A stretch of DNA of 64,000 nt from Bacteroidales bacterium (GTDB taxonomy: Bacteria; Bacteroidota; Bacteroidia; Bacteroidales; UBA932): NCBI GenBank assembly GCA_017620335.1, contig JAFZQO010000010.1, positions 44,063 to 108,062 on the forward strand, in the 5' to 3' direction. The notes beneath the pieces are model-generated. The model saw only the letters and a program-made list of their open reading frames with translations. It made no database searches and had not been told where the DNA came from. Both the position numbers and the translations under genes were made by a program. Below, in pieces: positions 7,891 through 23,655 of the stretch (its first letter is position 1; each line of letters starts with the position of its first letter).

Positions 7891-9285
7891 TTAAAACTGA
7901 TTTTCGTGTCCGTACAACTCCGTAGGATACCTCCCGCTGAAGCAGGCGGTACAGAGTTCCGCCCGGCCTGAGGCCTCGAAGAGGGCCTTCTCAGAGAGGT
8001 AGTGGAGGGAGTCGGCGCCGATGTAGTCGCAGATCTCCTGTTCGGTGTGGTCTGCGCCGATCAGCTGGTCCCGGGTGCCGGTGTCGATGCCGTAGAAGCA
8101 GGGCCAGGCATATTTGGGGCTTGCGATGAGCATGTGGACCTCCGTCGCCCCCGCGTCGCGCAGCATCTTCACTATTTGCCGCGACGTGGTTCCGCGGACG
8201 ATTGAGTCGTCTATGACGGCGATGCGCCGGCCCTTGACGATGCTCCTTACGGGGGACAGTTTCATGCGGACGCCGATGTCGCGCATCGACTGGGCCGGCT
8301 GGATAAAGGTACGGGCAACGTACATGTTCTTCAACAGACCCATCTCCAGGGGTATATGGCCGGCTTCCGCATAGCCGATGGCGGCGCTCATGCTTGACTC
8401 TGGGACGCTGGCTACGATGTCCGCGGGGACGGGGTGCTCCTGATACAGGAGCCTGCCCGTCCGCTTGCGGAAAGCGTGGACGCTGCAGCCTTCGATGTCG
8501 CTGTCCGGCCGTGCGAAGTAGATGTATTCCATCGCGCACATCCTCCTGCCGGCGGAATGCGAATGGCGGAGGCTCTTCAAACCGTCCGGTCCTATGGAGA
8601 TGAGCTCGCCGGGCTCGACGTCCCTGATGAAATCCGCTTTCAGCGCGTTCAGGGCGCATGTCTCGCTGGCGATGACGTAGCCGTCCCCGAGCCGCCCTAT
8701 GGAAAGGGGACGGAATCCATACTTGTCCCTGCAGGCATACAGGACGCCGTCCGCCAGCATTACGGTGCAAAAAGCCCCGTCAAGCTGGTTCGCCGCCGGA
8801 ATGATGCTGGAGGCCCAGTCTCCCTTCTTCGCCCCCATTCCGATCAGGTGGGCGAACAGTTCGCTGTCGGAAGTTGTATTGAAAAGGTGGCCCAGCGCCT
8901 CGAGCCTGGATTTGATGTCGGCCGCGTTGACGATGTTGCCGTTGTGTGCGAGGGCGAAGCGTCCTGCGCTGCAGGACATCATGAAAGGCTGGATGTTCTC
9001 CATGCCGCCCACCTCGGTGGTGGGGTAGCGTACGTGACCTATGCAGATGCTGCCGTGGAGACCGGCGAGGGCGGATTCCGTGAAAACGTCCTTGACCAGT
9101 CCCGCACCCTTATGTACGCAAATGTTTCCAGCGGGGTCGCAGACGGCGGCACCGCAGGCCTGCTGGCCCCTGTGCTGCAGCGCCTGCAACGCCAGGAAGG
9201 CCTTCCTCGGGGCGTCCTCCACCCCGTAGATCCCCAACACGCCGCACTCTTCGTGCAACTCTTCGAAACAGTGACTAAAGTCCAT
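7891..9285 (-). CDS. purF: Amidophosphoribosyltransferase
   Basis: 464 residues; catalyses the first committed step of purine synthesis, moving glutamine amide nitrogen to PRPP. Motifs: a short propeptide followed by the catalytic Cys14 (HEECGVLGIYG), glutaminase residues GHVRYPTTE and LAHNGNI, and the PRPP site VIDDSIVRGTTS near residue 356. Cysteines in MCAMEY, AWPCFYG and CTACFSG match the 4Fe-4S ligands of the Bacillus subtilis-type enzyme. Last gene of the nitrogen operon, overlapping the end of dapL by 11 bp. Placement with gltBD and asnB groups it with other glutamine-amide users. Confidence 0.96.
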   Translation of the reverse strand: MDFSHCFEELHEECGVLGIYGVEDAPRKAFLALQALQHRGQQACGAAVCDPAGNICVHKGAGLVKDVFTESALAGLHGSICIGHVRYPTTEVGGMENIQPFMMSCSAGRFALAHNGNIVNAADIKSRLEALGHLFNTTSDSELFAHLIGMGAKKGDWASSIIPAANQLDGAFCTVMLADGVLYACRDKYGFRPLSIGRLGDGYVIASETCALNALKADFIRDVEPGELISIGPDGLKSLRHSHSAGRRMCAMEYIYFARPDSDIEGCSVHAFRKRTGRLLYQEHPVPADIVASVPESSMSAAIGYAEAGHIPLEMGLLKNMYVARTFIQPAQSMRDIGVRMKLSPVRSIVKGRRIAVIDDSIVRGTTSRQIVKMLRDAGATEVHMLIASPKYAWPCFYGIDTGTRDQLIGADHTEQEICDYIGADSLHYLSEKALFEASGRAELCTACFSGRYPTELYGHENQF

Positions 9286-10480
9286 CTATGCAGTTTTCCA
9301 ACCTGTCCATAGCTTCGATTGTCCGCTCCCTGCCGGCGAATGACGTCAGCCTGAAGTATCCCCGGCCCGCCCGGCCGAAGCCGGATCCGGGAGTTATGAC
9401 TATTCCCGCCCTTTTCAGCAGGATGTCGAAGAACTCCCAGTCGTCCATCCCGTCCGGAGTCCTGGCCCATACGTACGGGGCATTCTCTCCGCCGGAGGCG
9501 TGCAGCCCCGCCCGCTTCAATCCGTCCCGGATGACGGCGGCGTTGCCGAGGTAGTAGCGGATGCTCTCGCGCGTCTGTTCCCTCCCTTCGGGAGAGTACA
9601 CCGCATACGCTCCGCGCTGCGACACATACGACGCGCCGTTGAACTTGCACCCCTGCCGGCGCTCCCAGAGAGCGTTGAGGGTCTTATCCGCGCCGTCAGT
9701 GCTGCGGCCCCGGAGTTCTCCGGGGACGACGGTGTACCCGCAGCGGATGCCGGTGAAACCGGCCGTCTTGGAGTAGCTGCGGAATTCGACCGCGCATTCC
9801 CGCGCACCGTCTATCTCGTAGATGGAGTGCGGAATGTCCGGATCCTGGATAAAGGCCTCGTAGGCCGAATCGTAAAGGATCAGGGATCCGTTCCGGAGTG
9901 CATAGTCCACCCATCCTTCCAGCTTTTCGCGGCTTATCACCGCGCCGGTCGGGTTGTTCGGGTAGCAAAGATAAACAATATCCAGCTTTTCTTCGGGGAT
10001 TTCTCCCGTAAATCCGTCTTCCTGCGAGCAAGTGATGAACCTGATACGCCTTCCGTCGATGACGTTGGTGTCCACGTATACGGGATAGACGGGGTCGATG
10101 ATGCCCACGGAATTCCCGTCCGAGAACAGGTCCAGGATGTTTCCGAGGTCGCTCTTGGCCCCGTCGCTGATGAACACCTCCTCCGGATCGACGGTGACGC
10201 CCCGGGAGGCGTAGTCTCCCTGGACGACGGCCTCGCGGAGCCAGCCGTAGCCGTGCTCCGGCCCATAGCCGTGGAACCTCTCCTGCACGGAGAGGTCGTC
10301 CACGGCCTCGTGCATGGCACGGATTACGGCCGGGGCGATGGGGAGCGTCACGTCCCCGATCCCCATCCTGATGATGTCGGTCTCCGGGGAGGCTTCATGG
10401 AATGCGGCCACCCTGCGGGCGACCTCCTGGAACAGATACCGGTGTTCCAGCCGGCAGTATCCGTCTTTGATGCGTATCAT
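9275..10480 (-). CDS. dapL: LL-diaminopimelate aminotransferase
   Basis: 401-residue PLP enzyme (class I/II aminotransferase) that converts tetrahydrodipicolinate straight to LL-diaminopimelate using glutamate as amino donor. Visible: MGIGDVTLPIAPAVIRAMHE, FISDGAKSDLGN, YLCYPNNPTGAVI, DSAYEAFI and the PLP lysine, Lys238, in SYSKTAGFTG; PGSGFGRAGRGYFRLT at the C-terminus. Full family length. Three bp downstream of dapF and overlapping purF, so lysine/peptidoglycan precursor synthesis is tied to the glutamate-producing operon. The alternative dapC/dapD/dapE genes are not in this window. Confidence 0.94.
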   Translation of the reverse strand: MIRIKDGYCRLEHRYLFQEVARRVAAFHEASPETDIIRMGIGDVTLPIAPAVIRAMHEAVDDLSVQERFHGYGPEHGYGWLREAVVQGDYASRGVTVDPEEVFISDGAKSDLGNILDLFSDGNSVGIIDPVYPVYVDTNVIDGRRIRFITCSQEDGFTGEIPEEKLDIVYLCYPNNPTGAVISREKLEGWVDYALRNGSLILYDSAYEAFIQDPDIPHSIYEIDGARECAVEFRSYSKTAGFTGIRCGYTVVPGELRGRSTDGADKTLNALWERRQGCKFNGASYVSQRGAYAVYSPEGREQTRESIRYYLGNAAVIRDGLKRAGLHASGGENAPYVWARTPDGMDDWEFFDILLKRAGIVITPGSGFGRAGRGYFRLTSFAGRERTIEAMDRLENCIDGL

Positions 10481-10483
10481 GTC

Positions 10484-11335
10484 TCAGTCCTCCAGTTCAA
10501 TGGTCCCTTCGAAAACGGTAGTCGCCGTACCGGTCATGCGGATTTCCTTGGTGGCGGGATCCCAGGACACTTCCAGAGATCCTCCGTCCATGATTACGGT
10601 ACAGCCGTCCGGCCGTGTGTAGCCGGCCATCGCGGCTGCGACGGCCGTGGCGCAGGCCCCCGTGCCGCAGGCCTGCGTTATGCCGCTCCCGCGCTCCCAG
10701 ACGCGCATGCGGATATGCCTCTCGTCGAGCACTTGCGCGAATTCGATGTTGGCCCGGTGGGGGAACATGACGTCCTTCTCGAACAACGGTCCGGCCTCGG
10801 CCACCGGAGCGGCTTCGGCGTCCGGTACGAAGAGCACCAGATGGGGATTGCCGACGTCAATGGCCGTCCCGCGGAAACGCTTCCCGCAGGCGAAGGCGTC
10901 CTCAAGGATCCACTGCCCGCGGCTCCCGTCGGGAAGGACCACCTCGAGCGGAACTCCCTTGCCCATGTCCACGGTGACGTCGCGCACCTGGCCGGAAGGG
11001 TCCAGGTTCAGCTTGAGCATCTTGATGCCTGAAAGTGTTTCCAGAGCTATCAATGTCTTGTCTGACAGGCCCTTGTCATGGATGTACCTTCCTATGCAGC
11101 GGGAACCGTTGCCGCACATCATGGCCTCGGAACCGTCGGCGTTGAATATCCTCATGCTGAAGTCGGCGCAGTCCGACGCCCCTATGAGGATGAGTCCGTC
11201 GGAGCCGATGCCCTTGTGCCTGTCGCTCCAGAGGACGGACAGCCGTGACGGGTCTTCGATAGGGTACTCCATGGCATTGACGTAGATGTAGTCGTTGCCG
11301 AGCCCGTGCATCTTGGTAAAAGGGATCTTTCTCAT
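10484..11335 (-). CDS. dapF: Diaminopimelate epimerase
   Basis: 283 residues; interconverts LL- and meso-diaminopimelate by a two-cysteine mechanism. Begins [18 protein letters not shown], the classic DapF N-terminus; catalytic Cys74 in MMCGNGSRC and Cys223 in [21 protein letters not shown] and GNPHLVLFV also present. An open frame continues upstream inside gltD, but the ATG at 11335 overlaps the gltD stop by ATGA and matches the family start. Acts directly after the neighbouring DapL. Confidence 0.95.
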
Positions 11336-12681
11336 AATCTTCCGTTCAGATAATCGTCGACTTCCTGTGCCGTGGCCCGTCCTCCGGCCAGCGCCCTGAC
11401 GACCAGGCTTGTCCCGGTCTTTGCGTCGCCGGCGAGGAAGACGTTGGGGCCGAACTGCGGGTGCTGGGGCTTCAGGAAGCCCATCGCCAGCAGCACCATG
11501 TCGCACTCGATGATACTCTTCCGGCCGGTAGGTTTCATCTGGGGACGGCCTCCGTCCGGAGCAGGCAGCCAGTCGACTTCCTCGACTTCCACGCCGGCCA
11601 CCCGGCCCTTGCAGTCGTCGATGAACCTGCAGGAAGACAGGCTCCAGCGCCTGTCGCATCCCTCCTCGTGGCTGGTGGAGGTCCTGAGTATCATGGGCCA
11701 GGCCGGCCATGGAGTGGCCGGATTGTAACCCTCCGGCGGTTTGGGCATGATCTCGATCTGTGTGACGTTTTTGCAGCCCTGGCGGTGGCAGGTGCCGATG
11801 CAGTCGCTGCCGGTGTCGCCTCCGCCGATGACCAGGACCGTCCGGCCTTTGGCCGATACGGTCTCCTCCTTGCTGAACTGCTCTCCCGCGAGCCTGCGGT
11901 TCTGCTGGGTCAGAAGGTCCAGCGCGAAGTATATGCCCTTTAGCTCCCTTCCGGGGATGGGCAGGTCGCGCGCAGTCGGGGTGCCGGTGGAGATGACATA
12001 AGCGTCATAGCCTTCCGGAAGGTGTTCCGTATCCACGGTCACGCCGTAGCGGAAGGTGATGCCCTCCTGCTCCAGCACTGCTATTCGCCTGTCTATCACA
12101 TACTTGTCTAACTTGAAATTGGGTATGCCGTAGCGGACGAGGCCGCCTGCGGAAGGCATCTTCTCCAGTACGGTTACGTCGTAACCCCGTTTGTTGAGCT
12201 GTACGGCTGCGGAGAGTCCGGCGGGGCCGGCTCCGACCACCGCCACCTTCTTTCCGTTGCGGGGATACTGGCGAGGATGGACATATCCTTCGCGGAATGC
12301 GCGCTCGATGATCGAGCACTCGTTCTCGCGGACGGTCACAGGCGCGTCCATGCTGTGGTTGAGCACGCAGCTCTTCTCGCAAAGGGCGGGGCAGATGCGC
12401 CCGGTGAATTCCGGAAAGTCGTTGGTCTGCGACAGGAGCTTGTAGGCAAGCTCCCACTTGCCCTTGCAGGCCGCGTCCTGCCACTCGGGCTGACGGTTGC
12501 CCAGCGGGCAGGCCCAATGGCAGAAAGGTACGCCGCAGTCCATGCACCGGGAAGCCTGGAGCATGCGGTCGCCCTCGTTGAGGACCTGCTCCACTTCTCC
12601 GAAATTGGAGATTCTTTCAAATACCGGCCTGTGGCCGGCTTCCTGACGGGGAATGGTCAGGAATGCATTCGGGTTTCCCAT
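11332..12681 (-). CDS. gltD: Glutamate synthase, small (beta) subunit
   Basis: 449 residues; the flavoprotein half of GOGAT that takes electrons from NAD(P)H and passes them to GltB. N-terminal Fe-S cysteines in [17 protein letters not shown] and [12 protein letters not shown]-binding [13 protein letters not shown](P)-binding [11 protein letters not shown], and a C-terminal [15 protein letters not shown]. Length is normal. It lies 12 bp after gltB and is coupled to dapF by ATGA. Confidence 0.96.
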
Positions 12682-12693
12682 AATCCTTTTCCG

Positions 12694-15600
12694 TTAATAT
12701 TCCATCTGTACATTGTCGATCTTTTCGTTCAGCTTGCGGATCTGCTCCTCGTGGAGCACCCTCTTGTATTCGATAGGGGTGACCTGGATGAAGTCCTCGG
12801 CGTATTCGGACCAATGCTCGAGCATCCTTGCCGCCAGAGAGGAGCCTGTCAGCCTGCGGTGTTCCGCTATGAGGCCCTTCAGTTCCTCCATCCTGGCCTT
12901 CTCCTCGATCAGTCCGAGCTCTATCATCTCCATGTTGCAATAGTAGTCGAAGTTGTGGTCGGGGTCCCAGACATAGGCAAGGCCGCCGGACATACCGGCC
13001 GCGAAGTTGCGTCCCGTAGGTCCGAGGACCACGACGCGTCCTCCGGTCATGTACTCGCAGCAATGGTCTCCGACTCCCTCGACCACAGCGGTGGCGCCGG
13101 AGTTGCGGACGGCGAAGCGTTCGCCGGCCCGTCCGGCCATGAACAGAGAGCCGGACGTGGCGCCGTAGAGCAGCGTATTGCCGGCGATCGTGTTCGCGGA
13201 AGCCTCGAAATGGGCGTCAGGGTCGGGCCGGACGACGATTCGCCCTCCGGAAAGACCCTTGCCCAGATAATCGTTGGCCTCGCCTTCGAGCCTGAAGCTT
13301 ACGCCCTTCATCAGGAAGGCCCCGAAACTCTGTCCTGCCGATCCGTGGAAGGTTACGTTCACCGTTCCGTCGGGCAGGCCTTCCTCGCCGTAGCGCTCCG
13401 CGATACGGCCGGAAAGCAGCGCCCCGACGGTGCGGTCGGTGTTGGCGATCCCGTAGTGCAGCGACACGCTGCGGCCGCTCTCAAGGGCGGGTCTGGCTGC
13501 CGCCAGGATATGCCTGTCGAGGACGTCTCCCAGCGTGTTCCTGAATCCCGGATCGGCGTGGAGGCAGCCCTCTCCATTCTGGAAGAGGAGGCGGCCGAAG
13601 TCCAGCGAAGCCGCCTTCGATCCGCTCTTTGCCTTGTCCACGACGATCAGGTCCGTACGTCCGACGATATCCTCGAACTTCCTGAATCCCATGTCTGCAA
13701 GGTACTCTCGCACCTCTTCGGCCAGGAAGAGATAGTAGTTCACTAGGGCGTCGCTGCTTCCACGGTACAGCTTGAGCAGCTGTGGGTTGCGCGTCGCAAT
13801 GCCCATGGGACAGGAGTTGGCGTGGCACTTGCGCATCAGGACGCAGCCGAGCACTATGAGCTGGGCCGTTCCGAAGCCGAACTCGTCAGCGCCGAGAAGG
13901 GCCATCGAGACGACGTCGCGCCCGGTCTTGAGCTGGCCGTCGGTCTGGAGCGTCACCTTGTCGCGGAGTCCGTTCATTACCAGGGTCTGCCTGGTCTCGG
14001 AGAGTCCTATCTCCGGCGGCAGGCCGGCGTAGCGGATGGAGGACATGGGCGAAGCCCCCGTGCCTCCCTCCGCGCCGGAGATGACGATCAGGTCGGCCTT
14101 GGCCTTGGCAACGCCCGCGGCCACGGTTCCGACCCCGCTTTCCGCGACCAGCTTCACGCTGATGCGCGCATCGGGATTAACGTTGCGGAGGTCGAAGATC
14201 AGCTGCTTGAGGTCCTCGATGGAATAGATGTCATGATGGGGCGGGGGAGAGATGAGGGAAATGCCCGGGATTGAATGCCGGGTCTTCGCTATGATGCCGT
14301 CGACCTTGTATCCGGGCAGCTGTCCGCCTTCTCCGGGCTTCGCTCCCTGGGCGATCTTGATCTGTATTTCCCTCGCGTTGACGAGGTATTCGGTGGTCAC
14401 TCCGAAACGTCCGGAAGCGACCTGCTTGATGCCGCTGTTCTTCGCCGTATGGAAGCGTTCTCGGTCCTCTCCGCCTTCACCGGTATTGCTGCGCGAGCCG
14501 AGGCGGTTCAGGGCTTCCGCGATGGCCTCGTGGGCGCCCTGGCTGATGGCGCCGAAGGACATCGCAGCCCCGACGAAGCGCTTCACAATCTCCTCCGCCG
14601 GCTCAACCTCCTCGATAGGAATAGGATTATGCTTGAAAGTGAAGAAGTCGCGCAGGAACAGAGGCTCCCGGTGGTTGTCAATTATGGAGGTGAACTCCTT
14701 GAATTTCTTGTAGTCGCCGGTCCTCGTGGAAAGCTGGAGGGCGGCTATGGCCTCGGGTGTCCAGGAGTGGGGGATTCCGTCCTTGCGGAAGGAATACTGG
14801 CCGACATGCGGAAGGATGTCGGACACCTCGCAGGCGAATCCCTGCGAATGCATCCTTGCTGCGTCCAGCGCGATACGTGACAGCGAGATGCCCCCGACCG
14901 TCGAGGACGGGGTGCCGAAATAGTCCCTGAGCAGTTCCGCCCCGAGTCCGATGCTCTCGAAGATCTTGGCCCCGCGGTAGGAGCGTATCGTGCTGATGCC
15001 CATCTTGCTGAGTATCTTCTTGAGCCCCTTGTCCACGGCCTTGATGTAGTTCTTGCGCGCGGTCTCGAAGTCGAGCTGCAGGTCGCCTTTCTTCACCAGG
15101 TCGTCGATGATGGCGAAGGCCATGTAGGGGTTGACGGCGCTGGCGCCGTAGCCGAGCAGGAGGGCGGAATGCATCGTCTCCCTTATCTCCCCGCTTTCCA
15201 CGATCAGAGCCGTCTGGACGCGCTTCTGTACCTTGACCAGGTAATGGTGTATGGCGCTGACGGCCAGCAGGGAAGGTATGGCTGCATGGGTCTCGTCCAG
15301 CCCCCTGTCGCTTAGGATGATGTAGTTGATGCCGCGGTCCACGGACGCCTCGGCCTCGCGGCAGAGACCGTCCAGGGCCTCCTTCAGCCCGACCTCTCCC
15401 TTCGATTTATCGAACAGGATGGGCAGGACCTCGGTGTTGAAACCCTTGTAGCGGATGTGGCACAGCATGTCGAGTTCGTCGTTGGTCAGGACGGGCTGAG
15501 GCAGGCGGACCATCTTGCAGTGGCTCTCGTTGGGGGTGAGGATGTTCATGCCCACGGCGCCGATGTACTCGGTAAGGGACATGACGAGGTCCTCGCGTAT

Positions 15601-17142
15601 CGGGTCGATGGGAGGGTTCGTCACCTGGGCGAACTGCTGGCGGAAGTAATTGAACAGCAGCTGGGGACGCTCGGAAAGGGCCGCCAACTGTGTGTCGTTG
15701 CCCATGGACGAGACCGGCTCGGAGGCCGTGCTGCACATGGGCACGATTATGCGCTCAATGTCCTCCCGGGTGTAGTCGAAGGCCCTTAGCCTTTTTTCGA
15801 AGTCGGGGACGGAATTCTCGGCCTTGCGGCCGCTGCGCAGCTTCGCCAGCTCGATGCGGCCGTTGGACAGCCACTGGCGGTAGTCCTGACCGTCCGCCAG
15901 GGCCTGCTTTATCTCGTCGTTGCGGAAGATGCGGCCGGTCTTGGTGTCGACCATCAGGATCTTGCCGGGCTGGAGGGAACCTTTCTCAACTACGGAGCCG
16001 GCGTTGACCGGCAGGCATCCGGCCTCGGAGGCGATGGCGAGCATGCCCCTGTCGGTGACCAGGTAGCGCGAAGGGCGCAGGCCGTTGCGGTCCAGCATGC
16101 CTCCGGCGTACCGTCCGTCCGAGAATAGAATGGCGGCGGGTCCGTCCCACGGCTCCATGAGGATGGAGTGGTACTCGTAGAATGCTTTCAAGTCGTTCCC
16201 GATGGGGTTCTTCTCATTGAAAGACTCCGGAATCATCATCGACATCACGTGCGGCAGCTCCATCCCGGAATGGACGAAGAATTCCATCACGTTGTCGAAG
16301 GATGCGCTGTCGCTCATGCCCGGCTGGACGATTGGATGGATGTCCCGGACGTCGCCGAGGGCCTTGGAGGACAGCACGCTCTCGCGCGCCTCCATCCATC
16401 CGCGGTTGCCGCGGATGGTGTTGATCTCGCCGTTGTGCGCCATCATCCTGAACGGCTGGGCCAGGGACCAGGCCGGGAAGGTGTTGGTGCTGAAGCGCGA
16501 GTGGATCAGCGCCAGGCCCGAGGTGAAGAACGGGCTGGAGAGGTCGGGATAATACTCCTTCAACTGCGTGGAGGTAAGCATTCCCTTGTAAATCAACACT
16601 TTGCTGGAAAGGGAGACGACGTAGAAGTCCTTGTCGTCAATCTTCTGCTCAGCGTGCTTGCGGATGCGGTACAGCCTGGTCTCCAGGCCTTCCGGGGCGG
16701 CGTCTCCGCCCGTGACGATGACCTGGACTATGTGCGGCTCGCAGGCGAGGGCGGTCTCTCCGAGGATACTGCTGTCGACCGGGACTTCCCTGACGTTGGA
16801 GAGGATGAGCCCCTCCTTCTCGGTCTCCCTCCTGAGCACGTCCAGGCACATCTCCCCTTTTGCCCCGTCCTTCGGAAGGAAGACAAGTCCGGTGCCGTAC
16901 CTGCCCCTTTCCGGGACGGGGATGCCCTGGAGGAGGATGAATTCGTGGGGTATCTGCACCATGATGCCGGCGCCGTCGCCTGTCCTGGCGTCGGCGCCCT
17001 CGGCTCCACGGTGCTGAAGGTTCTCCAGCATGGTGAGCGCATCGGATACCAGTTGGTGGGTCTTGTTGCCGTTCAGGTCGGCTATGAGTCCCACGCCGCA
17101 GGCATCGTGCTCGTATGCCGGATTGTAAAGGGTTCTGTCCAT
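12694..17142 (-). CDS. gltB: Glutamate synthase, large (alpha) subunit
   Basis: 1482 residues; transfers the glutamine amide to 2-oxoglutarate to give two glutamates. Ntn-type glutaminase domain with catalytic Cys15 after a short propeptide (HDACGVGL), then the central and FMN synthase domains (GEGGEDRERF, AKPGEGGQLPGYKV, SGAEGGTGASP), the 3Fe-4S cysteines of CVLMRKCHANSCPMG, and the GXGXG beta-helix at the end. A GTG at 17169 is in frame but lies inside glnN; ATG 17142, 4 bp after the glnN stop, is a better start. Confidence 0.96.
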   Translation of the reverse strand: MDRTLYNPAYEHDACGVGLIADLNGNKTHQLVSDALTMLENLQHRGAEGADARTGDGAGIMVQIPHEFILLQGIPVPERGRYGTGLVFLPKDGAKGEMCLDVLRRETEKEGLILSNVREVPVDSSILGETALACEPHIVQVIVTGGDAAPEGLETRLYRIRKHAEQKIDDKDFYVVSLSSKVLIYKGMLTSTQLKEYYPDLSSPFFTSGLALIHSRFSTNTFPAWSLAQPFRMMAHNGEINTIRGNRGWMEARESVLSSKALGDVRDIHPIVQPGMSDSASFDNVMEFFVHSGMELPHVMSMMIPESFNEKNPIGNDLKAFYEYHSILMEPWDGPAAILFSDGRYAGGMLDRNGLRPSRYLVTDRGMLAIASEAGCLPVNAGSVVEKGSLQPGKILMVDTKTGRIFRNDEIKQALADGQDYRQWLSNGRIELAKLRSGRKAENSVPDFEKRLRAFDYTREDIERIIVPMCSTASEPVSSMGNDTQLAALSERPQLLFNYFRQQFAQVTNPPIDPIREDLVMSLTEYIGAVGMNILTPNESHCKMVRLPQPVLTNDELDMLCHIRYKGFNTEVLPILFDKSKGEVGLKEALDGLCREAEASVDRGINYIILSDRGLDETHAAIPSLLAVSAIHHYLVKVQKRVQTALIVESGEIRETMHSALLLGYGASAVNPYMAFAIIDDLVKKGDLQLDFETARKNYIKAVDKGLKKILSKMGISTIRSYRGAKIFESIGLGAELLRDYFGTPSSTVGGISLSRIALDAARMHSQGFACEVSDILPHVGQYSFRKDGIPHSWTPEAIAALQLSTRTGDYKKFKEFTSIIDNHREPLFLRDFFTFKHNPIPIEEVEPAEEIVKRFVGAAMSFGAISQGAHEAIAEALNRLGSRSNTGEGGEDRERFHTAKNSGIKQVASGRFGVTTEYLVNAREIQIKIAQGAKPGEGGQLPGYKVDGIIAKTRHSIPGISLISPPPHHDIYSIEDLKQLIFDLRNVNPDARISVKLVAESGVGTVAAGVAKAKADLIVISGAEGGTGASPMSSIRYAGLPPEIGLSETRQTLVMNGLRDKVTLQTDGQLKTGRDVVSMALLGADEFGFGTAQLIVLGCVLMRKCHANSCPMGIATRNPQLLKLYRGSSDALVNYYLFLAEEVREYLADMGFRKFEDIVGRTDLIVVDKAKSGSKAASLDFGRLLFQNGEGCLHADPGFRNTLGDVLDRHILAAARPALESGRSVSLHYGIANTDRTVGALLSGRIAERYGEEGLPDGTVNVTFHGSAGQSFGAFLMKGVSFRLEGEANDYLGKGLSGGRIVVRPDPDAHFEASANTIAGNTLLYGATSGSLFMAGRAGERFAVRNSGATAVVEGVGDHCCEYMTGGRVVVLGPTGRNFAAGMSGGLAYVWDPDHNFDYYCNMEMIELGLIEEKARMEELKGLIAEHRRLTGSSLAARMLEHWSEYAEDFIQVTPIEYKRVLHEEQIRKLNEKIDNVQMEY

Positions 17143-17146
17143 AAGG

Positions 17147-19333
17147 TTAGTTGATAAAGAGGAGTTCACGGTACTTCGGAAGCGGCCAGAGGTCGTTGTC
17201 CACTATCTCTTCGAGCTTGTCGATGGGCCTGCGGATAGCGAAAAGGCTTTCAGCGATTTCGTGATAGGCCTTCGCCTTCTCGTATTCGTTCTCGATGGTG
17301 TTAGCGCTCTTTCTGGCTTCGATCATCTTGGCTACGCCCTTCTGGAGCTGTTCTATCCTGTGGGAGATTTTCTCGATAAGGGTAATGGTCACCGCCGCCT
17401 TTTCCTGATAGGAATCCGGGAAAGCCTCCTTCATCAAGGACAGGTTTTTCAGGAGCGTGTTCTGGTATGCGAGAGCGGCGGGGATGACGTGGTTGATGGC
17501 CATCCTTCCCATCACGCGGGATTCTATCTGCACCTTCTTGGTGTACATCTCCCACTTGACCTCGTTGCGGGCTTCGAGCTCCTTGAGGGAGTAGATGCCC
17601 AGCGAAGTGAACATCTCCACGGAAGCGGGCGTCGTGAAGGACTTGATCATCTCCGGTACGCTGGTCTCGGTGTCGAGTCCGCGGCGGGCGGCCTCCTCCT
17701 TCCACTCGTCGGAATAGCCGTTGCCGTCGAAGCAAACGACGTCGATGATGGAGGAGATGATGGGCTTGAGCGTATCCATGACTGCGACTTCCAGGGTCTT
17801 GCCCGCGGCAAGTTCCTTGTCGAGGTCTTTCTTGAACATGAGCAGCTGCTCGGCCACGGCGCCGCTGAGCGCGGTCATGGCGCCGGCGCAGTTGGCCGAG
17901 GAGCCGACGGCGCGGAACTCGAAGCGGTTGCCCGTAAAGGCGAAAGGCGAGGTACGGTTGCGGTCGGTATTGTCCACGAAGATTTCAGGAATCTCAACGA
18001 TACCGACGGAAGTACCCTTCTTGCCGGCGATTTCGATAGGGGTGCCGGAAGGGAGTTCGAGCAATTTGTGGAGGACGTCAGTCATCGTGCGTCCGAGGAA
18101 GGCCGAGACGATCGCGGGCGGGGCCTCGTTGGCACCCAGACGGTGTGCGTTGGTGGCGCTGGCGATGCTGGCCTTGAGCAGGGAGTTGTGTCTCTGGACG
18201 GCGGCCAGGATGTTCACGAAGAAGGTGACGAACTGGAGGTTGCCCATGGAGTCCTTGCCGGGGGCGAGGAGCAGGGTGCCGGTGTCTGTACCGAGGGACC
18301 AGTTGTTGTGCTTGCCGGAACCGTTGATGCCATCAAAGGGTTTTTCATGCAGGAGCACCACGAAGCCATGCTTGCGCGCGACCTTGTTCATGATGTTCAT
18401 TATCAGCTGGTTCTGGTCGTTGGAGAGGTTGCACTCTCCGAAGATGGGAGCGAGCTCAAACTGGTTCGGAGCCACCTCGTTGTGCCTGGTCTTGAGCGGG
18501 ATTCCGAGCTTGTAGCCCTCATATTCGAGGTCCTTCATGAAGGCCGCGACGCGGCTGGGGATGGCCGCGAAATAGTGGTCCTCTAGCTGCTGGTTCTTGG
18601 AGGACGCGTGCCCCATCAGGGTGCGGCCGGTGAGGATGAGGTCGGGCCTGGCGGCGTAGAGGTCCTCGTCCACGAGGAAGTACTCCTGCTCCCATCCGAG
18701 GTAGGAATGCACCTTGGAGACGGCCGGGTCGAAGAGCTTGCAGATGGGGACTGCGGCGTCGGAAACGGCCTTGAGGGCCTTCTTGAGCGGGGTCTTGTAG
18801 TCCAGGGCCTCGCCGGTGTAGGAGATGAACACCGTCGGGATGCACAGGGTGTCGTCCTGGATGAATACCGGGGAAGTCGGGTCCCAGGCGGTGTAGCCGC
18901 GCGCCTCGAAGGTGGCGCGGATGCCGCCGCTGGGGAAAGACGATGCGTCGGGCTCCTGCTGTATGAGGGACTTGCCGTTGAAGGACTCGATCATGCCTCC
19001 CTTGCGGTCGTATTCCATCAGGGAGTCGTGCTTTTCGGCCGTCACTTCGGTAAGGGGCTGGAACCAGTGCGTGATGTGGGTGACGCCGTGCCCGAGCGCC
19101 CATTCCTTCATTCCTTCGGCGACTTTGTCAGCCGTGGCAAGGTCGAGGCTGTGGCCATTGTCAATACAGTCTGTCAGTGCCTCGTAAGTCTTGACGTCGA
19201 GATACTTGCGCATCTTTTCGCGGTTGAACACCAGCTCTCCGAAATAGGCGGAAGGTCTCTCTGCGGGAGCGGTCACGTCCAAAGCCCTCTTCTTGAAGGC
19301 GTCCTGGACCACATCGAATCTTAAGGTACTCAT
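17147..19333 (-). CDS. glnN: Glutamine synthetase type III
   Basis: 728 residues, the size of GSIII (GlnN), the large glutamine synthetase typical of Bacteroidota and cyanobacteria. Makes glutamine from glutamate, ammonia and ATP. GSIII features: YFGELVFN near the N-terminus, KHDSLMEYD, FPSGGIRATFEARGYTAWD, GWEQEYFLVD, HNEVAPNQFELAP, NGSGKHNNWSLGTD and DNTDRNRTSPFAFTGNRFEFR. It lacks the adenylylation-type C-terminus of GSI, so control is more likely at transcription or by P-II. It sits 12 bp after asnB and 4 bp before gltB. Confidence 0.96.
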   Translation of the reverse strand: MSTLRFDVVQDAFKKRALDVTAPAERPSAYFGELVFNREKMRKYLDVKTYEALTDCIDNGHSLDLATADKVAEGMKEWALGHGVTHITHWFQPLTEVTAEKHDSLMEYDRKGGMIESFNGKSLIQQEPDASSFPSGGIRATFEARGYTAWDPTSPVFIQDDTLCIPTVFISYTGEALDYKTPLKKALKAVSDAAVPICKLFDPAVSKVHSYLGWEQEYFLVDEDLYAARPDLILTGRTLMGHASSKNQQLEDHYFAAIPSRVAAFMKDLEYEGYKLGIPLKTRHNEVAPNQFELAPIFGECNLSNDQNQLIMNIMNKVARKHGFVVLLHEKPFDGINGSGKHNNWSLGTDTGTLLLAPGKDSMGNLQFVTFFVNILAAVQRHNSLLKASIASATNAHRLGANEAPPAIVSAFLGRTMTDVLHKLLELPSGTPIEIAGKKGTSVGIVEIPEIFVDNTDRNRTSPFAFTGNRFEFRAVGSSANCAGAMTALSGAVAEQLLMFKKDLDKELAAGKTLEVAVMDTLKPIISSIIDVVCFDGNGYSDEWKEEAARRGLDTETSVPEMIKSFTTPASVEMFTSLGIYSLKELEARNEVKWEMYTKKVQIESRVMGRMAINHVIPAALAYQNTLLKNLSLMKEAFPDSYQEKAAVTITLIEKISHRIEQLQKGVAKMIEARKSANTIENEYEKAKAYHEIAESLFAIRRPIDKLEEIVDNDLWPLPKYRELLFIN

Positions 19334-19345
19334 AATATGGGAGAA

Positions 19346-21022
19346 TTAGATGGTTTGATATGCTTGTTCGTGGACTCCGGCGACGGCGCGGCCGCTGGGG
19401 TCGTTGAGGTTCTTGAATGCCGCGTCCCACTCGAGGGCGATGGCGGTGGAGCAGGCCACGCTGGCCTCGCTGGGTACGGAGAGGGCGGCGGAGTTGCTCG
19501 GGAAAAGCTCGGAGAAAATGCTCCGGTAGTAGTATTCCTCCTTGTTCTTCGGAGTATGTATGGGGAAGCGTTCGGCGGCGTGCTCCATTCGTTCGTCGCT
19601 GACGGCCTCGGCCGTGATGCGCTTCAGGGTGTCGATCCAGGAGTAGCCAACTCCGTCGGAGAACTGCTCCTTCTGCCTCCAGGCGATTTCGTCCGGAATC
19701 AGGTCTGCGCAGGCTTCGCGCACGATTTTCTTCTCTATGGTAGAGCCGGGGCACATCTTCGCGGCCGGGTTCAGGCGCATAGCCACGTCGAGGAACTCCT
19801 TGTCCAGGAACGGAACGCGTCCCTCCACGCCCCATGCCGAGAGGCTCTTGTTGGCGCGTAGGCAGTCGTAGAGATGCAGCTTTGAGAGCTTGCGGACCGT
19901 CTCCTCGTGGAATGCCTGCGCGTCGGGGGCCTTGTGGAAATAGAGGTAGCCGCCGAAGATCTCGTCGGCACCCTCGCCGGAGAGCACCATCTTTATGCCC
20001 ATCGACTTGATGACACGGGCGAGAAGGTACATCGGCGTCGAGGCGCGTATGGTCGTGACGTCGTAAGTTTCAGTATAATAGATAACGTCGCGTATCGCGT
20101 CCAGGCCTTCCTGGATGGTGTAGTTGATCTCGTGGTGGACGGTGCCGATGTGCTCCGCCACGAGGCGGGCCTTGGCGAGGTCCGGAGCGCCCTTCAGGCC
20201 TACGGCGAAGGAGTGCAGCCGCGGCCACCAGGCGCGTGTCCTCGAGTCGTCCTCGATGCGCATCGCGCTGTATTTCTCGGCGATGGCCGAGATGACGGAG
20301 GAGTCCAGTCCGCCGGAAAGCAGAACGCCGTAGGGGACGTCGGACATCAGCTGGCGCTTAACCGACGCCTCCAGGGCGGCGCGGAGCTCCGCCGGATCGG
20401 CGGGGTTGTCCCTCACGGCCTCGTAGTCCTTCCAATCGCGTGTATACCAGCGTTTCATCCCGGGCTCCGGGCTCCAGTAGCAGTGGCCGGGAAGGAAGGG
20501 CTCGTAGCGTTCACACTGTCCCTCCAGGGCCTTCAGTTCGCTTGCCACATAGACCTTGCCGTCGGCGTCGTCGAAGCCGATGTACAGGGGAATGACTCCG
20601 ATGGGGTCGCGGGCGATGAGGAAGGCATCCTTATCCTCGTCATAGAGCGCGAAGGCGAAGATGCCGTTCAGGTCCTCGAGAAAGTCCGGCCCCTTGTCGC
20701 GGTACAGCGCGAGGATGACCTCGCAGTCGCTGCCCGTACGGAAGTCGTACTTCCCGGCATAACGCCGGCGGATCTCCTGATGGTTGTAGATCTCGCCGTT
20801 TACGGCCAGGACCTGCCTTCCGTCGGGGGAGAGGAGCGGCTGTCCGCCGGACTCCGGGTCCACGATGCTCAGGCGCTCATGGGCCAGGACGGCGCTTCCG
20901 CCGCTCCAGATGCCGCTCCAGTCCGGCCCCCTGTGCCGGAGTTTGCGGCTCATCTCAAGAGCCTTCCGGCGCATCGCGTCGGACTGTTCCCGGATGTTGA
21001 ATATGCAAGCGATTCCACACAT
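19346..21022 (-). CDS. asnB: Asparagine synthase B (glutamine-hydrolysing)
   Basis: 558 residues; makes asparagine from aspartate, glutamine and ATP. Starts MCGIACIF, so Cys2 becomes the N-terminal nucleophile after Met removal; glutaminase residues in RHRGPDWSG, AHERLSIVD and VNGEIYNHQ; the synthetase domain has the PP-motif LLSGGLDSSVISAIA, then VLSGEGADEIFGGYLYFHKAP and EGRVPFLDKEFLDVAM. Full length and with an intact glutaminase, so it is a true AsnB rather than a lasso-peptide cyclase. Fourth gene of the nitrogen operon. Confidence 0.96.
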   Translation of the reverse strand: MCGIACIFNIREQSDAMRRKALEMSRKLRHRGPDWSGIWSGGSAVLAHERLSIVDPESGGQPLLSPDGRQVLAVNGEIYNHQEIRRRYAGKYDFRTGSDCEVILALYRDKGPDFLEDLNGIFAFALYDEDKDAFLIARDPIGVIPLYIGFDDADGKVYVASELKALEGQCERYEPFLPGHCYWSPEPGMKRWYTRDWKDYEAVRDNPADPAELRAALEASVKRQLMSDVPYGVLLSGGLDSSVISAIAEKYSAMRIEDDSRTRAWWPRLHSFAVGLKGAPDLAKARLVAEHIGTVHHEINYTIQEGLDAIRDVIYYTETYDVTTIRASTPMYLLARVIKSMGIKMVLSGEGADEIFGGYLYFHKAPDAQAFHEETVRKLSKLHLYDCLRANKSLSAWGVEGRVPFLDKEFLDVAMRLNPAAKMCPGSTIEKKIVREACADLIPDEIAWRQKEQFSDGVGYSWIDTLKRITAEAVSDERMEHAAERFPIHTPKNKEEYYYRSIFSELFPSNSAALSVPSEASVACSTAIALEWDAAFKNLNDPSGRAVAGVHEQAYQTI

Positions 21023-21046
21023 GATATTAGTTATTATATGATTCCG

Positions 21047-21757
21047 TCATGGCTGAAGCGTGATGCCTGCGACCAGGTAGGCTGCATTGCTGCAAGGATT
21101 GAAAGCCACCTGCGTGAACAACGGTATGGAGAAGGTATCCGTGACCCGGATATCCTTCGCGGCCGTGAGCGCCAGGTTGACCAGATTAAAGCCATCCGTG
21201 CCGTAGAAGTCCGTGGCAAACGGGACTACTCCTGCTGCTGCCGTCCAGTCGACATCTCCGATGCTGAAAGGAACGCTGGCTTCAAAGTAACTGCTATAGG
21301 CGGGTCTGCCATATCCGTTCAGGCTGTCGTTGCCGGCGAAATTGGTGTACCACTGCAGGGAGGCGAAACCGAAGTCATAGCCTATATTCGCCTCGAATAC
21401 ATGGTTGGTGCAGTCTGGACCGTAGGCGAAATAACGGTTGAGCGGGTCAAGGCCCGAATCGAACCAATAGTCCGTCACGCCGATGTTGAAGCCTCCTACC
21501 GAGTATGCCAGCGTCAGGTCAAATTCACGCGTGTCGAGCGGATTGCTCAGGCCGACGGATCCCCAGGCCGACAGGCTCAGGCCTTTGAATCCTATGCCGA
21601 GGGTCGGCTGCACGGATACGCCGCCAAGATCCTGGCCGCGCCACACATAGTGGCTCACGATGTCCGTGCCGAGCGTCGTTTCGACTGTATCTTGTGCTCC
21701 CGCGGTCACCGCTCCGGCGAGCAGCAGGGCAAAGAGGGATGTCATTATCGTTTTCAT
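21047..21757 (-). CDS. TorF-like outer-membrane porin family protein
   Basis: 236 residues with a signal peptide (MKTIMTSLFALLLAGAVTAG then AQDT) and a beta-rich body with alternating hydrophobic/aromatic strands (DIVSHYVWRGQDLGG, LSLSAWGSVGLSN, EFDLTLAYSVGGFNIGVTDY), ending in a membrane-strand-like segment. SHYVWRG matches the TIGR02001/TorF putative-porin family. The open frame extends upstream over amtB, but ATG 21757 starts the signal peptide and lies 10 bp after the amtB stop. It may let ammonium or small nitrogen solutes cross the outer membrane toward AmtB (inference from operon context). Confidence 0.8.
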   Translation of the reverse strand: MKTIMTSLFALLLAGAVTAGAQDTVETTLGTDIVSHYVWRGQDLGGVSVQPTLGIGFKGLSLSAWGSVGLSNPLDTREFDLTLAYSVGGFNIGVTDYWFDSGLDPLNRYFAYGPDCTNHVFEANIGYDFGFASLQWYTNFAGNDSLNGYGRPAYSSYFEASVPFSIGDVDWTAAAGVVPFATDFYGTDGFNLVNLALTAAKDIRVTDTFSIPLFTQVAFNPCSNAAYLVAGITLQP

Positions 21758-21767
21758 GGCCTTTTCC

Positions 21768-22985
21768 TTAATTGTAGCAGCTTTCGCCGTGTTCGTAGAT
21801 GTCGAGTCCTTCATCCTCCACGCGCGCCTCGACGCGCAGGCCGTGAAGCTTCTTAATACCGAAGAAGAGCAGGAATCCGCAGAGAGCGGCCCAAAGGTCG
21901 ATGACGAGGATGCCAAGGCACTGTACTCCGAAGAAATGCCAGCCGCTGCCGTAGAAGAGACCTCCGTCGGTAGCCAGCAGGCCGGTCAGGAGGGTGCCGA
22001 GGATACCGCATACTCCGTGTACGGAAGATGCACCCACAGGGTCGTCGATATGGAGCTTATGGTCGATGAATTCGATGGCGAATACCAGCACGCTGCCGCA
22101 GAGCAGGCCGATGACGACCGCGCCCCAGGGCGATACCACGTCGCAGCCGGCCGTGATGCCAACCAGGCCTGCCAGGACGCCGTTGAGGGTCAGCGACAGG
22201 GAAGGCTTGCCGTACTTGAGCCAAGTCAGGAACATCGTGGCGGTACCGCCGGCAGCGGCTGCAAGGTTGGTGGTAAGGAATACATGCGAGATGGCGGTGC
22301 GGTTCACCTCTCCGCTCGCGGCCAGCTGGCTTCCGGGGTTGAAGCCGAACCATCCGAGCCAAAGGATGAACACGCCGAGCGCCGCGAGGGCCAGGTTGTG
22401 ACCGGGAATGGCCCGGCTCTTGCCGTCCCTGCCGTATTTGCCGCGGCGCGGTCCGAGTGCGAGCGCTCCGATCAGTGCCAGTACGCCGCCGACGCTGTGG
22501 ACGATCGCCGAGCCGGCGAAATCGTGGAAACCAAGGTCGGCCAGCCAGCCGCCTCCCCAGGTCCAGTGCCCCTCGACGGGATAGACTATAAGGGAAATGA
22601 ATGCGCTGTAGATCAGGTACATCGAGAACTTGGTGCGTTCCGCCATGGCGCCGCTGACGATGGTCGCGGCGGTGGCGCAGAAGACGGTTTCAAAGATCAG
22701 GAAACCCTCGACGGGCAGGTCGCCTTTATAGAAGGAGAGGTCTCCCCAGTTGGGAGCCCCGATGAATCCGGCCCCGTCGCTTCCGAACATGAATCCGAAG
22801 CCTACGAAGAAGAACAGCAGGGAGCCGAGCATGAAGTCGACGAAGTTCTTCATCAGTATGTTGACGGTGTTCTTGCTGCGGGTGAATCCCGCTTCGCAGA
22901 GTGCGAATCCGGGTTGCATCCAGAATACAAGCATCGCTGCAAGCAGCATCCAAACGGTATCGAGGGATATGGCTAATTCGTTCAT
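21768..22985 (-). CDS. amtB: Ammonium transporter
   Basis: 405-residue Amt/Rh-type channel with about 11 membrane helices. Family features: FALCEAGFTRSKNTVNILMK near the N-terminus and both pore histidines of the twin-His pair, in DFAGSAIVHSVGG and SVHGVCGILG. No separate signal peptide is visible. Follows glnK by 22 bp, the usual glnK-amtB pairing but with glnK first; P-II normally blocks the channel from the cytosol when nitrogen is plentiful. Confidence 0.95.
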   Translation of the reverse strand: MNELAISLDTVWMLLAAMLVFWMQPGFALCEAGFTRSKNTVNILMKNFVDFMLGSLLFFFVGFGFMFGSDGAGFIGAPNWGDLSFYKGDLPVEGFLIFETVFCATAATIVSGAMAERTKFSMYLIYSAFISLIVYPVEGHWTWGGGWLADLGFHDFAGSAIVHSVGGVLALIGALALGPRRGKYGRDGKSRAIPGHNLALAALGVFILWLGWFGFNPGSQLAASGEVNRTAISHVFLTTNLAAAAGGTATMFLTWLKYGKPSLSLTLNGVLAGLVGITAGCDVVSPWGAVVIGLLCGSVLVFAIEFIDHKLHIDDPVGASSVHGVCGILGTLLTGLLATDGGLFYGSGWHFFGVQCLGILVIDLWAALCGFLLFFGIKKLHGLRVEARVEDEGLDIYEHGESCYN

Positions 22986-23007
22986 AAGACATTCGATTTT
23001 AAGGTTG

Positions 23008-23355
23008 TTACTTCTTGTCCCTGAGCACGGTGTCGCCGTGCTCGCCCGTACGTATCGACCACGTGTCGATCACGTCGCTCACGAAGATGCGTCCGTCCCC
23101 GACCTCACCGGTATGGGCTTCCCGCAGGATGACCTCCACGGCCGGTTCGACGAAGATGTCGCGGCAGATGATGGTCAGGGCGATGCGCTCGATGACATCG
23201 GTGGAGTACTGGACGCCGCGGTAGATGCGCTCCTGCCGGCTCTGGCCGATGCCGTGCACGTCGTGATACTCAAACCAGTTGATGTCAGACTGGAGGAGGG
23301 CCTCCTTCACATCCTCAAACCTTGTTTTCCGGATGATAGCTTCAATCCTTTTCAT
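23008..23355 (-). CDS. glnK: P-II nitrogen regulatory protein
   Basis: 115 residues, canonical P-II length. Senses ATP/ADP and 2-oxoglutarate and controls partner proteins, here most likely AmtB. Start MKRIEAIIRK (ATG 23355); T-loop with Tyr50 in RGVQYST, equivalent to the uridylylated Tyr51 of enteric GlnB/GlnK; C-terminal signature TGEVGDGRIFV followed by RTGEHG. The T-loop sequence differs from the enteric one around the tyrosine, so uridylylation is not certain. The frame opens upstream to 23412, but that stretch overlaps the terminator's tail and reads like leader sequence. First full-length gene of the nitrogen operon. Confidence 0.93.
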   Translation of the reverse strand: MKRIEAIIRKTRFEDVKEALLQSDINWFEYHDVHGIGQSRQERIYRGVQYSTDVIERIALTIICRDIFVEPAVEVILREAHTGEVGDGRIFVSDVIDTWSIRTGEHGDTVLRDKK

Positions 23356-23410
23356 AATGTTTCGTGACTTTTTTGTTAAGTTGTCGTATAATCCCCGGGG
23401 AAGGATAAAC

Positions 23411-23440
23411 AAAAAAAGACCGGCTCTCTCGAACCGGTCT
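23411..23440 (-). terminator. Intrinsic terminator / attenuator before glnK
   Basis: On the minus strand AGACCGG (23440-23434), a 10-nt loop and CCGGTCT (23423-23417) form a perfect 7-bp GC-rich stem, immediately followed by a run of T. It points toward glnK and lies 55 bp before its ATG, so by default it would stop transcripts coming from the leader promoter or from pyrG. No T-run follows on the plus strand, so it is directional. Its place between a Gln/Asn-rich short ORF and the operon makes an attenuator role likely. Confidence 0.8.
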
Positions 23441-23463
23441 CCTAATATACTCTACAATTTAAT

Positions 23464-23583
23464 TCACCTTATCCGGCCGGCAGGACAAGACACGAGATTG
23501 TTCTGGGAGTTATTATTGCTCTCAGACTGTGACTGCTGCTTGAAATTGGCGGATATGGTGAAAATGTCGATCATTTCCTTCAT
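23464..23583 (-). CDS. Putative Gln/Asn leader peptide of the nitrogen operon (39 aa)
   Basis: ATG 23583 to TGA, 39 codons. Residues 16-29 (QQSQSESNNNSQNN) contain four Gln and five Asn codons; a further Asn is at residue 13. The stop codon is 24 nt before the terminator hairpin, and a promoter box ends about 10 bp before the ATG. The last codons carry CCGGCCGG (23473-23480), able to pair with the CCGG of the terminator's 5' arm; a ribosome at the stop codon would cover it, while one stalled on Gln or Asn codons would expose it. The downstream operon makes both glutamine and asparagine. An ordinary small protein or a modified-peptide precursor is possible but explains less. Confidence 0.65.
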   Translation of the reverse strand: MKEMIDIFTISANFKQQSQSESNNNSQNNLVSCPAGRIR

Positions 23584-23593
23584 TGTTCTACCA

Positions 23594-23625
23594 CAAATAT
23601 AGGCAGTGGAATCCAAATATGCAAG
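23594..23625 (-). promoter_or_regulatory. Promoter of the nitrogen-operon leader
   Basis: Minus strand: CTTG at 23625-23622 (one mismatch to the -33 TTTG), a 20-bp spacer and TATATTTG at 23601-23594 (perfect TAnnTTTG). The start site would fall near 23588, about 5 nt before the leader-peptide ATG. This would let the operon be expressed separately from pyrG. Confidence 0.6.
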
Positions 23626-23655
23626 AGATTTCTTAAAAAAATATAATAAACCGTT

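Follow-up and report, generated by a model that had tools for sequence, protein, structure and literature searches.

A putative Gln/Asn leader-peptide attenuator before nitrogen assimilation genes in some Bacteroidales

A nitrogen operon headed by a short leader

The window analyzed here is a 64,000-nucleotide stretch of a Bacteroidales genome (contig JAFZQO010000010.1). On its minus strand, glnK (23008..23355; Pfam P-II), which encodes PII and is the first structural gene, is followed by amtB (22985-21768; Amt), a porin gene (21781-21047; Gcw_chp), asnB (21022-19346; Asn synthase), glnN (19333-17147; GSIII, the type III glutamine synthetase), gltB (17169-12694; glutamate synthase large subunit), gltD (12681-11332; gltD-type oxidoreductase), dapF (11710-10484; DAP epimerase), an aminotransferase gene (10480-9275), and an amidotransferase gene (9285-7891). 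Pfam thus bears out the gene order of the original prediction, glnK-amtB-porin-asnB-glnN-gltBD and onward; the labels dapL and purF for the last two genes are those of that prediction, and Pfam gives class I/II aminotransferase and class-II amidotransferase. The rest of the operon (7891..22985) is presumably co-transcribed with glnK, judging from strand and tight spacing. Both glnS and asnS are present in the genome, with GlnRS encoded in the window at 43009-44694.

The leader region lies on the minus strand between pyrG (stop at 23656) and glnK (ATG at 23355). The promoter box that had been predicted upstream of the leader ORF is present as a Bacteroidetes-type pair, TTG (23624-23622), a 20-nt spacer, and TATATTTG (23601-23594); we call it promoter-like by comparison with the Bacteroidetes promoter consensus. 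The ORF originally described, with 39 codons from ATG 23583 (72 nt past the end of pyrG) to TGA 23466-23464, exists as stated and reads MKEMIDIFTISANFKQQSQSESNNNSQNNLVSCPAGRIR, but a form of 36 codons plus stop (23464..23574; MIDIFTISANFKQQSQSESNNNSQNNLVSCPAGRIR) is likelier because the starts of close relatives align with the second ATG (23574). The aligned start falls 18 to 20 nt after the promoter box in L001, L003, L004, L008, L028, and L370, and in L006 it falls 29 nt after the box, or 20 nt if its GTG is used.

As had been claimed, 9 of 14 successive codons of this ORF (23538-23497; residues 16 to 29 of the 39-codon form) specify Gln or Asn; these candidate regulatory codons comprise 4 CAG and 5 Asn codons. 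When every possible start is considered, the window contains 2,047 short ORFs, of which only 4 have ≥7 Gln/Asn in 15 residues; 3 of the 4 are the leader ORF read from different starts. The fourth (1771-1703; 8 in 15) was rejected as an internal start in a longer ORF. Among 16 terminator-like sites in the window with a short ORF just upstream, the leader scores 9 and the next best scores 4.

Downstream of the ORF, a sequence scan finds an intrinsic terminator, AGGAGACCGGTTCGAGAGAGCCGGTCTTTT (23411..23443, minus strand), in which a stem of 13 pairs, G-U allowed (23443-23414), leads into a T-run ending at 23411, 55 nt before glnK. Its GACCGG core begins 24 nt past the ORF stop, the distance originally given between the stop and a GC stem with a T-run. 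The only other terminator-like site on the minus strand between 7000 and 26000 is a 5-pair stem at 22551. As a whole, the 188-nt leader folds more stably than shuffled sequences (z = -3.78). The 5' arm of the terminator, AGGAGACCGGTTC (segment 3; 23431..23443, minus strand), defined by the terminator scan and the covariation alignment, is complementary to GCCGGCCGG (segment 2; 23473..23481, minus strand) in the last sense codons, which would supply the 5' strand of an antiterminator; CCGGCCGG, near the ORF end, occupies 23480-23473. A possible segment 1, or protector, TTCACCATATCCGCC (23548..23562, minus strand), is predicted to pair with 23478-23463 when the ORF is untranslated.

Distribution of the leader among relatives

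The region upstream of glnK was compared among relatives, and the combination of a Gln/Asn-rich ORF and a terminator recurs: we collected 43 distinct leaders, whose peptides have diverged almost beyond alignment. The scanner behind this number demands both the ORF and the terminator, and L031 (6 Gln/Asn in 15) was kept by name. A first scan, in which ORFs within 450 nt upstream of glnK were ranked ignoring terminators, covered 107 loci. ORFs with ≥7 Gln/Asn in 15 residues were found at 20 of these, and a terminator follows directly in 19; at the twentieth, L021, a less strict scan recovered it, and a manually supplied string fixed its place. A search for relatives with the hairpin but no Gln/Asn-rich ORF, the case that would speak against the original prediction, turned up none. 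With the threshold lowered to ≥6 and a terminator demanded after the ORF, 21/107 loci have the arrangement, two of them being the window's own. The remaining loci score ≤6 and lack it in the 450 nt upstream of glnK; in L016 and L038, a leader is present farther upstream. A further 70 loci were reduced by BLAST to 53 with a PII gene (17 were dropped), and 7 of the 53 have a leader; five of these seven belong to a different genus (g15), and MSNGIAILIAAQFGQNQNQNQNQVPLAIPLDRQES is an example of their peptides. The leader of L137, also among the further loci, lies farther upstream, and L027 and L120 offered no upstream sequence that could be used.

Promoter-like sequences accompany many of these leaders. 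TAnnTTYG occurs ≤90 nt upstream in 26/43, compared with 4% of random 90-mers, a control that applies to TAnnTTYG alone; in 22 of the 26 box-bearing leaders, TTG precedes the box by 18 to 22 nt.

A loose scan of 419 loci (1.70 Mb), which were fetched around nitrogen genes and are not an unbiased genome sample, yielded 765 distinct terminator-like sites; at 41 of these, an ORF with ≥7 Gln/Asn in 15 residues lies immediately upstream. Looking downstream of terminators instead, as a mirror test, gave 7, every one an ORF of the same leaders. BLAST against the window proteins identified nitrogen operon genes after every leader except L026, where a partial glnK was found, and L292, where the stretch past the terminator starts like glnK.

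Many relatives do not have the leader. It was found at 2/69 order-level loci (L187 and L188, family f18) and at 0/28 phylum-level loci (2 of the 28 duplicate order-level positions); both searches extended no more than ∼1.5 kb upstream of glnK. The 30 top-ranking GSIII loci in the family (L247 to L276) yielded no leader, and none of 20 further windows upstream of GSIII genes (L334 to L353) scored above 5. The leader is a trait of certain lineages and not of the order Bacteroidales as a whole. The window's own genome carries a second type III glutamine synthetase gene (G000:C5:107622-108098; L334), upstream of which no Gln/Asn leader was found.

A covariance model, R1, recovers the window leader with an E value of 2.4e-12 (the window is in the training set), and in the window's own genome it matches strongly at the leader site alone, the next match having an E value of 0.023. 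It also found leaders outside its training set, L290, L292, and L313, the last at a place already known from the scan. We did not use R1 for counts because its weaker matches, inspected in 14 of 15 stretches, were mostly ordinary terminators after genes.

The leader stands at the head of differing units

The position of the leader tracks whatever comes first in the unit: glnK, porin-glnK, glnN, or asnB. From genomes lacking an adjacent leader, we drew 20 regions of 6 to 15 kb, most of them upstream of glnK; in three (G016, G096, and G277), a leader at a distance had been identified beforehand. Nine of the 20 have a leader on the operon strand, six of these new, and none was found in the other 11, of which L314 and L317 are shortened by contig ends. 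The gene orders seen include leader-porin-glnK-amtB and leader-glnN-gltB-gltD-(pyrG-purF)-glnK, in which the leader lies 8 to 11.6 kb before glnK. A leader directly precedes asnB in L364, L365, L367, L370, L408 (where downstream genes were read as far as asnB), and the minus strand of L319. Three units in genome G096 each carry a leader: one starts with glnN, one with porin-glnK, and the third is asnB-pyrG-dapF-dapL-purF.

These arrangements bear on a reading in which the terminator ends pyrG transcription or that of a separate small RNA, with the ORF there by coincidence. The window leader does carry both a promoter-like pair and a terminator of its own, and just 72 nt separate the end of pyrG from ATG 23583. 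Yet in relatives leader and terminator also precede glnN, asnB, and porin-glnK units, and the composition of the ORF is left unexplained; we therefore consider this reading highly improbable.

Amino acid and codon composition

The 43 leaders contain 202 CAG, 7 CAA, 188 AAT, and 86 AAC codons, and their Gln:Asn mix differs among units. The two lowest Gln shares, one Gln and nine Asn each, belong to L365 and the minus-strand leader of L319; both head asnB units, with no glnN, glnK, or amtB seen downstream. In a single genome, G059, the glnK leader has eight Gln and three Asn, and the asnB leader has one Gln and nine Asn. Where asnB heads the unit and glnN follows (L364, L367, and L370), Gln and Asn are mixed. 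The L319 leader before glnN leans toward Asn (three Gln, seven Asn), which goes against a simple rule.

AAT makes up 188/274 (69%) of the Asn codons in leaders versus 18 to 22% in genes: 77/424 in 19 window ORFs and 325/1,509 in ORFs of ≥110 residues that lie after leaders, possibly with some spurious frames among them. Fisher's test gives a P value of 4e-51 for the excess, with codons treated as independent. Low G+C alone fails to explain it, because CAA is not favored. Leader Asn codons are mostly AAT while genes prefer AAC, as if slower codons had been chosen.

Triplet composition could also matter in another way: the ORF might be no sensor at all, its CAG/AAT triplet repeats instead binding a TRAP-like RNA-binding protein that controls the terminator. 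The runs are triplet-periodic and purine-rich, and CAG serves for nearly every Gln (202/209); CAG is, however, the usual Gln codon in window genes anyway (294/311). Moreover, triplet order and spacing vary, Asn uses both AAT and AAC, the runs sit in open frames that end near segment 2, and Asn-only runs go with asnB. We judge control by such a protein to be quite unlikely.

Predicted pairing between the ORF end and the terminator

The terminator helix covaries: 6/10 pairs show double changes, and 97.3% of cells are paired (22 distinct rows). The original prediction had also placed a segment complementary to the terminator where a ribosome at the stop codon would cover it, and relatives keep such a segment. 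The core of segment 2, CCRG, is present between -30 and +18 relative to the stop in 37/43 leaders, compared with 20% in shuffled regions. Counts for the three frames are 16, 11, and 4, with another 6 past the stop, a spread over all frames and beyond that argues for conservation at the level of RNA and not of peptide. In its best register, complementarity to the leader's own terminator arm covers ≥6 bp in 40/43 leaders, and in 23/26 representatives versus 59% of shuffled regions; in 40/43, this best match begins between -26 and +12 relative to the stop.

Whether segments 2 and 3 change together is less clear. When the site was rechosen for each swap, 165/5,000 permutations reached the native mean (43 leaders), and with related leaders thinned to 26 representatives the covariation was not significant (1,108/5,000 permutations). 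A swapping test gave means of 16.4 for native versus 15.3 for cross combinations, in agreement with weak segment covariation. We discarded an earlier figure of 10/5,000 shuffles, which was biased because sites had been picked to pair with their own terminator; the absence of mismatches in that test was by construction, as four core pairs were required. The pairing originally proposed between CCGGCCGG and the terminator is kept in relatives, its covariation is only marginal, and in the window itself it is predicted to run via the first CCGG.

Folding was simulated mainly with only the RNA ahead of the ribosome (37 leaders). With the ribosome on the last Gln/Asn codon, the mean predicted pairing of segment 3 with segment 2 is 0.80, and 29/37 leaders exceed 0.5; with the ribosome on the stop, the mean is 0.17, and 5/37 exceed 0.5. 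The mean in shuffles is 0.50. Taken alone, the window leader has a pairing of 0.97, equaled by 12% of shuffles. Folds in a fixed register form the antiterminator in 21/37 leaders with the ribosome at the last position, 8/37 at the middle position, and 1/37 at the stop. A scheme that left the upstream RNA free covered 30 of the 37 leaders and gave 6/30 at the middle, 9/30 at the last, and 2/30 at the stop position; it was replaced by folding ahead of the ribosome. In minimum-free-energy folds, long-range pairing between the ORF start and the stop region occurs in 8/8 close relatives, with varying details, and covariation of the protector (1:2) helix is not significant.

Coding constraint on the leader peptide is weak. 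In 12 leader pairs, synonymous single changes number 24 versus 15.2 expected, changes are flat over codon positions (62/55/60), 23/35 changed Gln/Asn codons leave the Gln/Asn class, and 4 gaps are multiples of three and 3 are not. In the minus-strand leader of L370 (genome G081), a 1-nt frameshift downstream of the Gln/Asn run leaves segment 2 intact and scrambles the peptide. This leader (ORF at 1274) is a near-copy of the window type placed before asnB-glnN, and G081 also carries a leader before glnK (L003).

These data are relevant to the possibility that the signal for the leader is a nascent arrest peptide or a general slowdown in translation and not Gln/Asn tRNA charging. Only a short distance separates the run from the stop, and the C-terminal residues are similar within the window clade. 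Between clades, however, the peptide is not conserved, in L370 it is scrambled while the nucleotides stay, and the composition of the run fits the products of the operon, so we hold out very little prospect for this reading.

Proposed mechanism

Given the composition and position of the ORF, the terminator, the complementary segments, and the link to nitrogen units, the element is very probably a ribosome-mediated transcription attenuator of the trp/his type that uses Gln and Asn codons and senses the charging of Gln-tRNA and Asn-tRNA. We infer translation, stalling, termination, readthrough, and the direction of the response from this layout. RNA polymerase would start just upstream of the leader ORF with a ribosome trailing it. 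With Gln-tRNA and Asn-tRNA well charged, the ribosome would reach the stop and cover segment 2, the terminator (3:4) would form, and transcription would end before glnK. When amide nitrogen is short, the ribosome would stall on the Gln/Asn run and leave segment 2 exposed; free segment 2 would pair with segment 3, the 5' arm of the terminator, no terminator would form, and transcription would proceed into the genes that serve to take up ammonium and to make glutamine, glutamate, and asparagine. In these uncultured gut Bacteroidales, conservation in relatives suggests that the leader serves as a gauge of the cell's nitrogen status by which the operon is switched on or off.

In enteric bacteria, a comparable role in nitrogen status belongs to transcription factors and PII relays. 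A broader version of the attenuator reading holds that amide-nitrogen status is read mainly by translation, charging of leader-decoding tRNA-Gln and tRNA-Asn controlling the assimilation regulon, with a Gln:Asn mix tuned for each unit: Asn-only before asnB and mixed or Gln-rich before glnN and glnK. We regard the chances of this broader version, tuning included, as evenly balanced. If attenuation operates as proposed, glutamine and asparagine would join the amino acids sensed by leader peptides, and gut and rumen Bacteroidales would have a concrete mechanism of nitrogen control. Transcription-translation coupling in Bacteroidota would also become testable, because the design needs a ribosome close behind RNA polymerase.

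Relation to known systems

The trp, his, leu, ilv, and thr attenuators of enteric bacteria act by ribosome-mediated transcription attenuation by a leader peptide. The present leader resembles them in its short ORF rich in codons for the product, its intrinsic terminator, and the segment at the ORF end complementary to the 5' arm. It differs in its Gln and Asn codons, its central nitrogen assimilation targets, and its phylum, Bacteroidota, and it lacks a clearly conserved protector helix. Among known RNA motifs, Bacteroid-trp RNA functions in trp attenuation, and the glnA and Downstream-peptide motifs bind glutamine as glutamine riboswitches. In passages of PMC2864571, Bacteroid-trp RNA (Rfam RF01692) is listed in a table as a Bacteroidetes RNA motif, glnA RNAs are described, the Downstream-peptide motif is cyanobacterial, and the glnA/Downstream-peptide motifs are riboswitch candidates. 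An Rfam search of window positions 22500 to 24500 returned only two matches, both to other families with E values above 1, and L310, L319, L160, L187, and L041 had no match up to an E value of 0.5. A known Rfam element (glnA, Downstream-peptide, T-box, or Bacteroid-trp) was rejected for lack of a covariance-model match. Unlike Bacteroid-trp RNA, the window leader concerns other amino acids and genes, and unlike the glnA/Downstream-peptide riboswitch candidates, it is a putative leader peptide.

Prevotella ruminicola 23 has a nitrogen cluster of much the same genes as the window operon: glnK, amtB, PRU_1977, asnB, GSIII-2, gltBD, and dapF. Extracts of PMC5552732 report that, dapF excepted, transcripts of these genes change 26.6- to 69.1-fold with ammonium; the extracts disagree on the direction of the response and describe no mechanism. 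Prevotella-named glnK loci, searched up to 4 kb upstream, yielded no leader. Clues of leader-peptide attenuation before amino acid operons in Flavobacterium (excerpts of PMC9723704) and sORFs in long 5' untranslated regions of B. thetaiotaomicron (excerpts of PMC7366714) have been described. The words glutamine and asparagine are absent from the passages of PMC2965389 and PMC1262725. The original prediction knew of no described Gln/Asn leader, and our search of the open-access literature, which mostly excludes subscription papers, likewise found neither a Gln nor an Asn leader peptide. The mechanism is known; the amino acids and target are probably new as far as this search extends.

Other elements near nitrogen and trp genes

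A conserved inverted repeat (like TTGCGAAAT n5-6 ATTTCGC) followed by GGGGG...TATnCCC occurs upstream of glnK in 19/160 upstream regions by a loose pattern; the 14 listed loci are L011 to L015, L019, L020, L072, L085, L087, L091, L095, L097, and L104. Regions L010, L011, and L085 gave no convincing Rfam match. The repeat is perhaps an internal promoter or operator.

In genome G325 (genus g15), the minus strand of L310 carries a Phe/Trp-rich leader ORF (at 1486), MNAQVNSFFFWRAWFWQSSVSVCASPIV, with a terminator. It precedes a trpB-like gene, identified by eye from sequence, and is apparently another leader-peptide attenuator in the same family.
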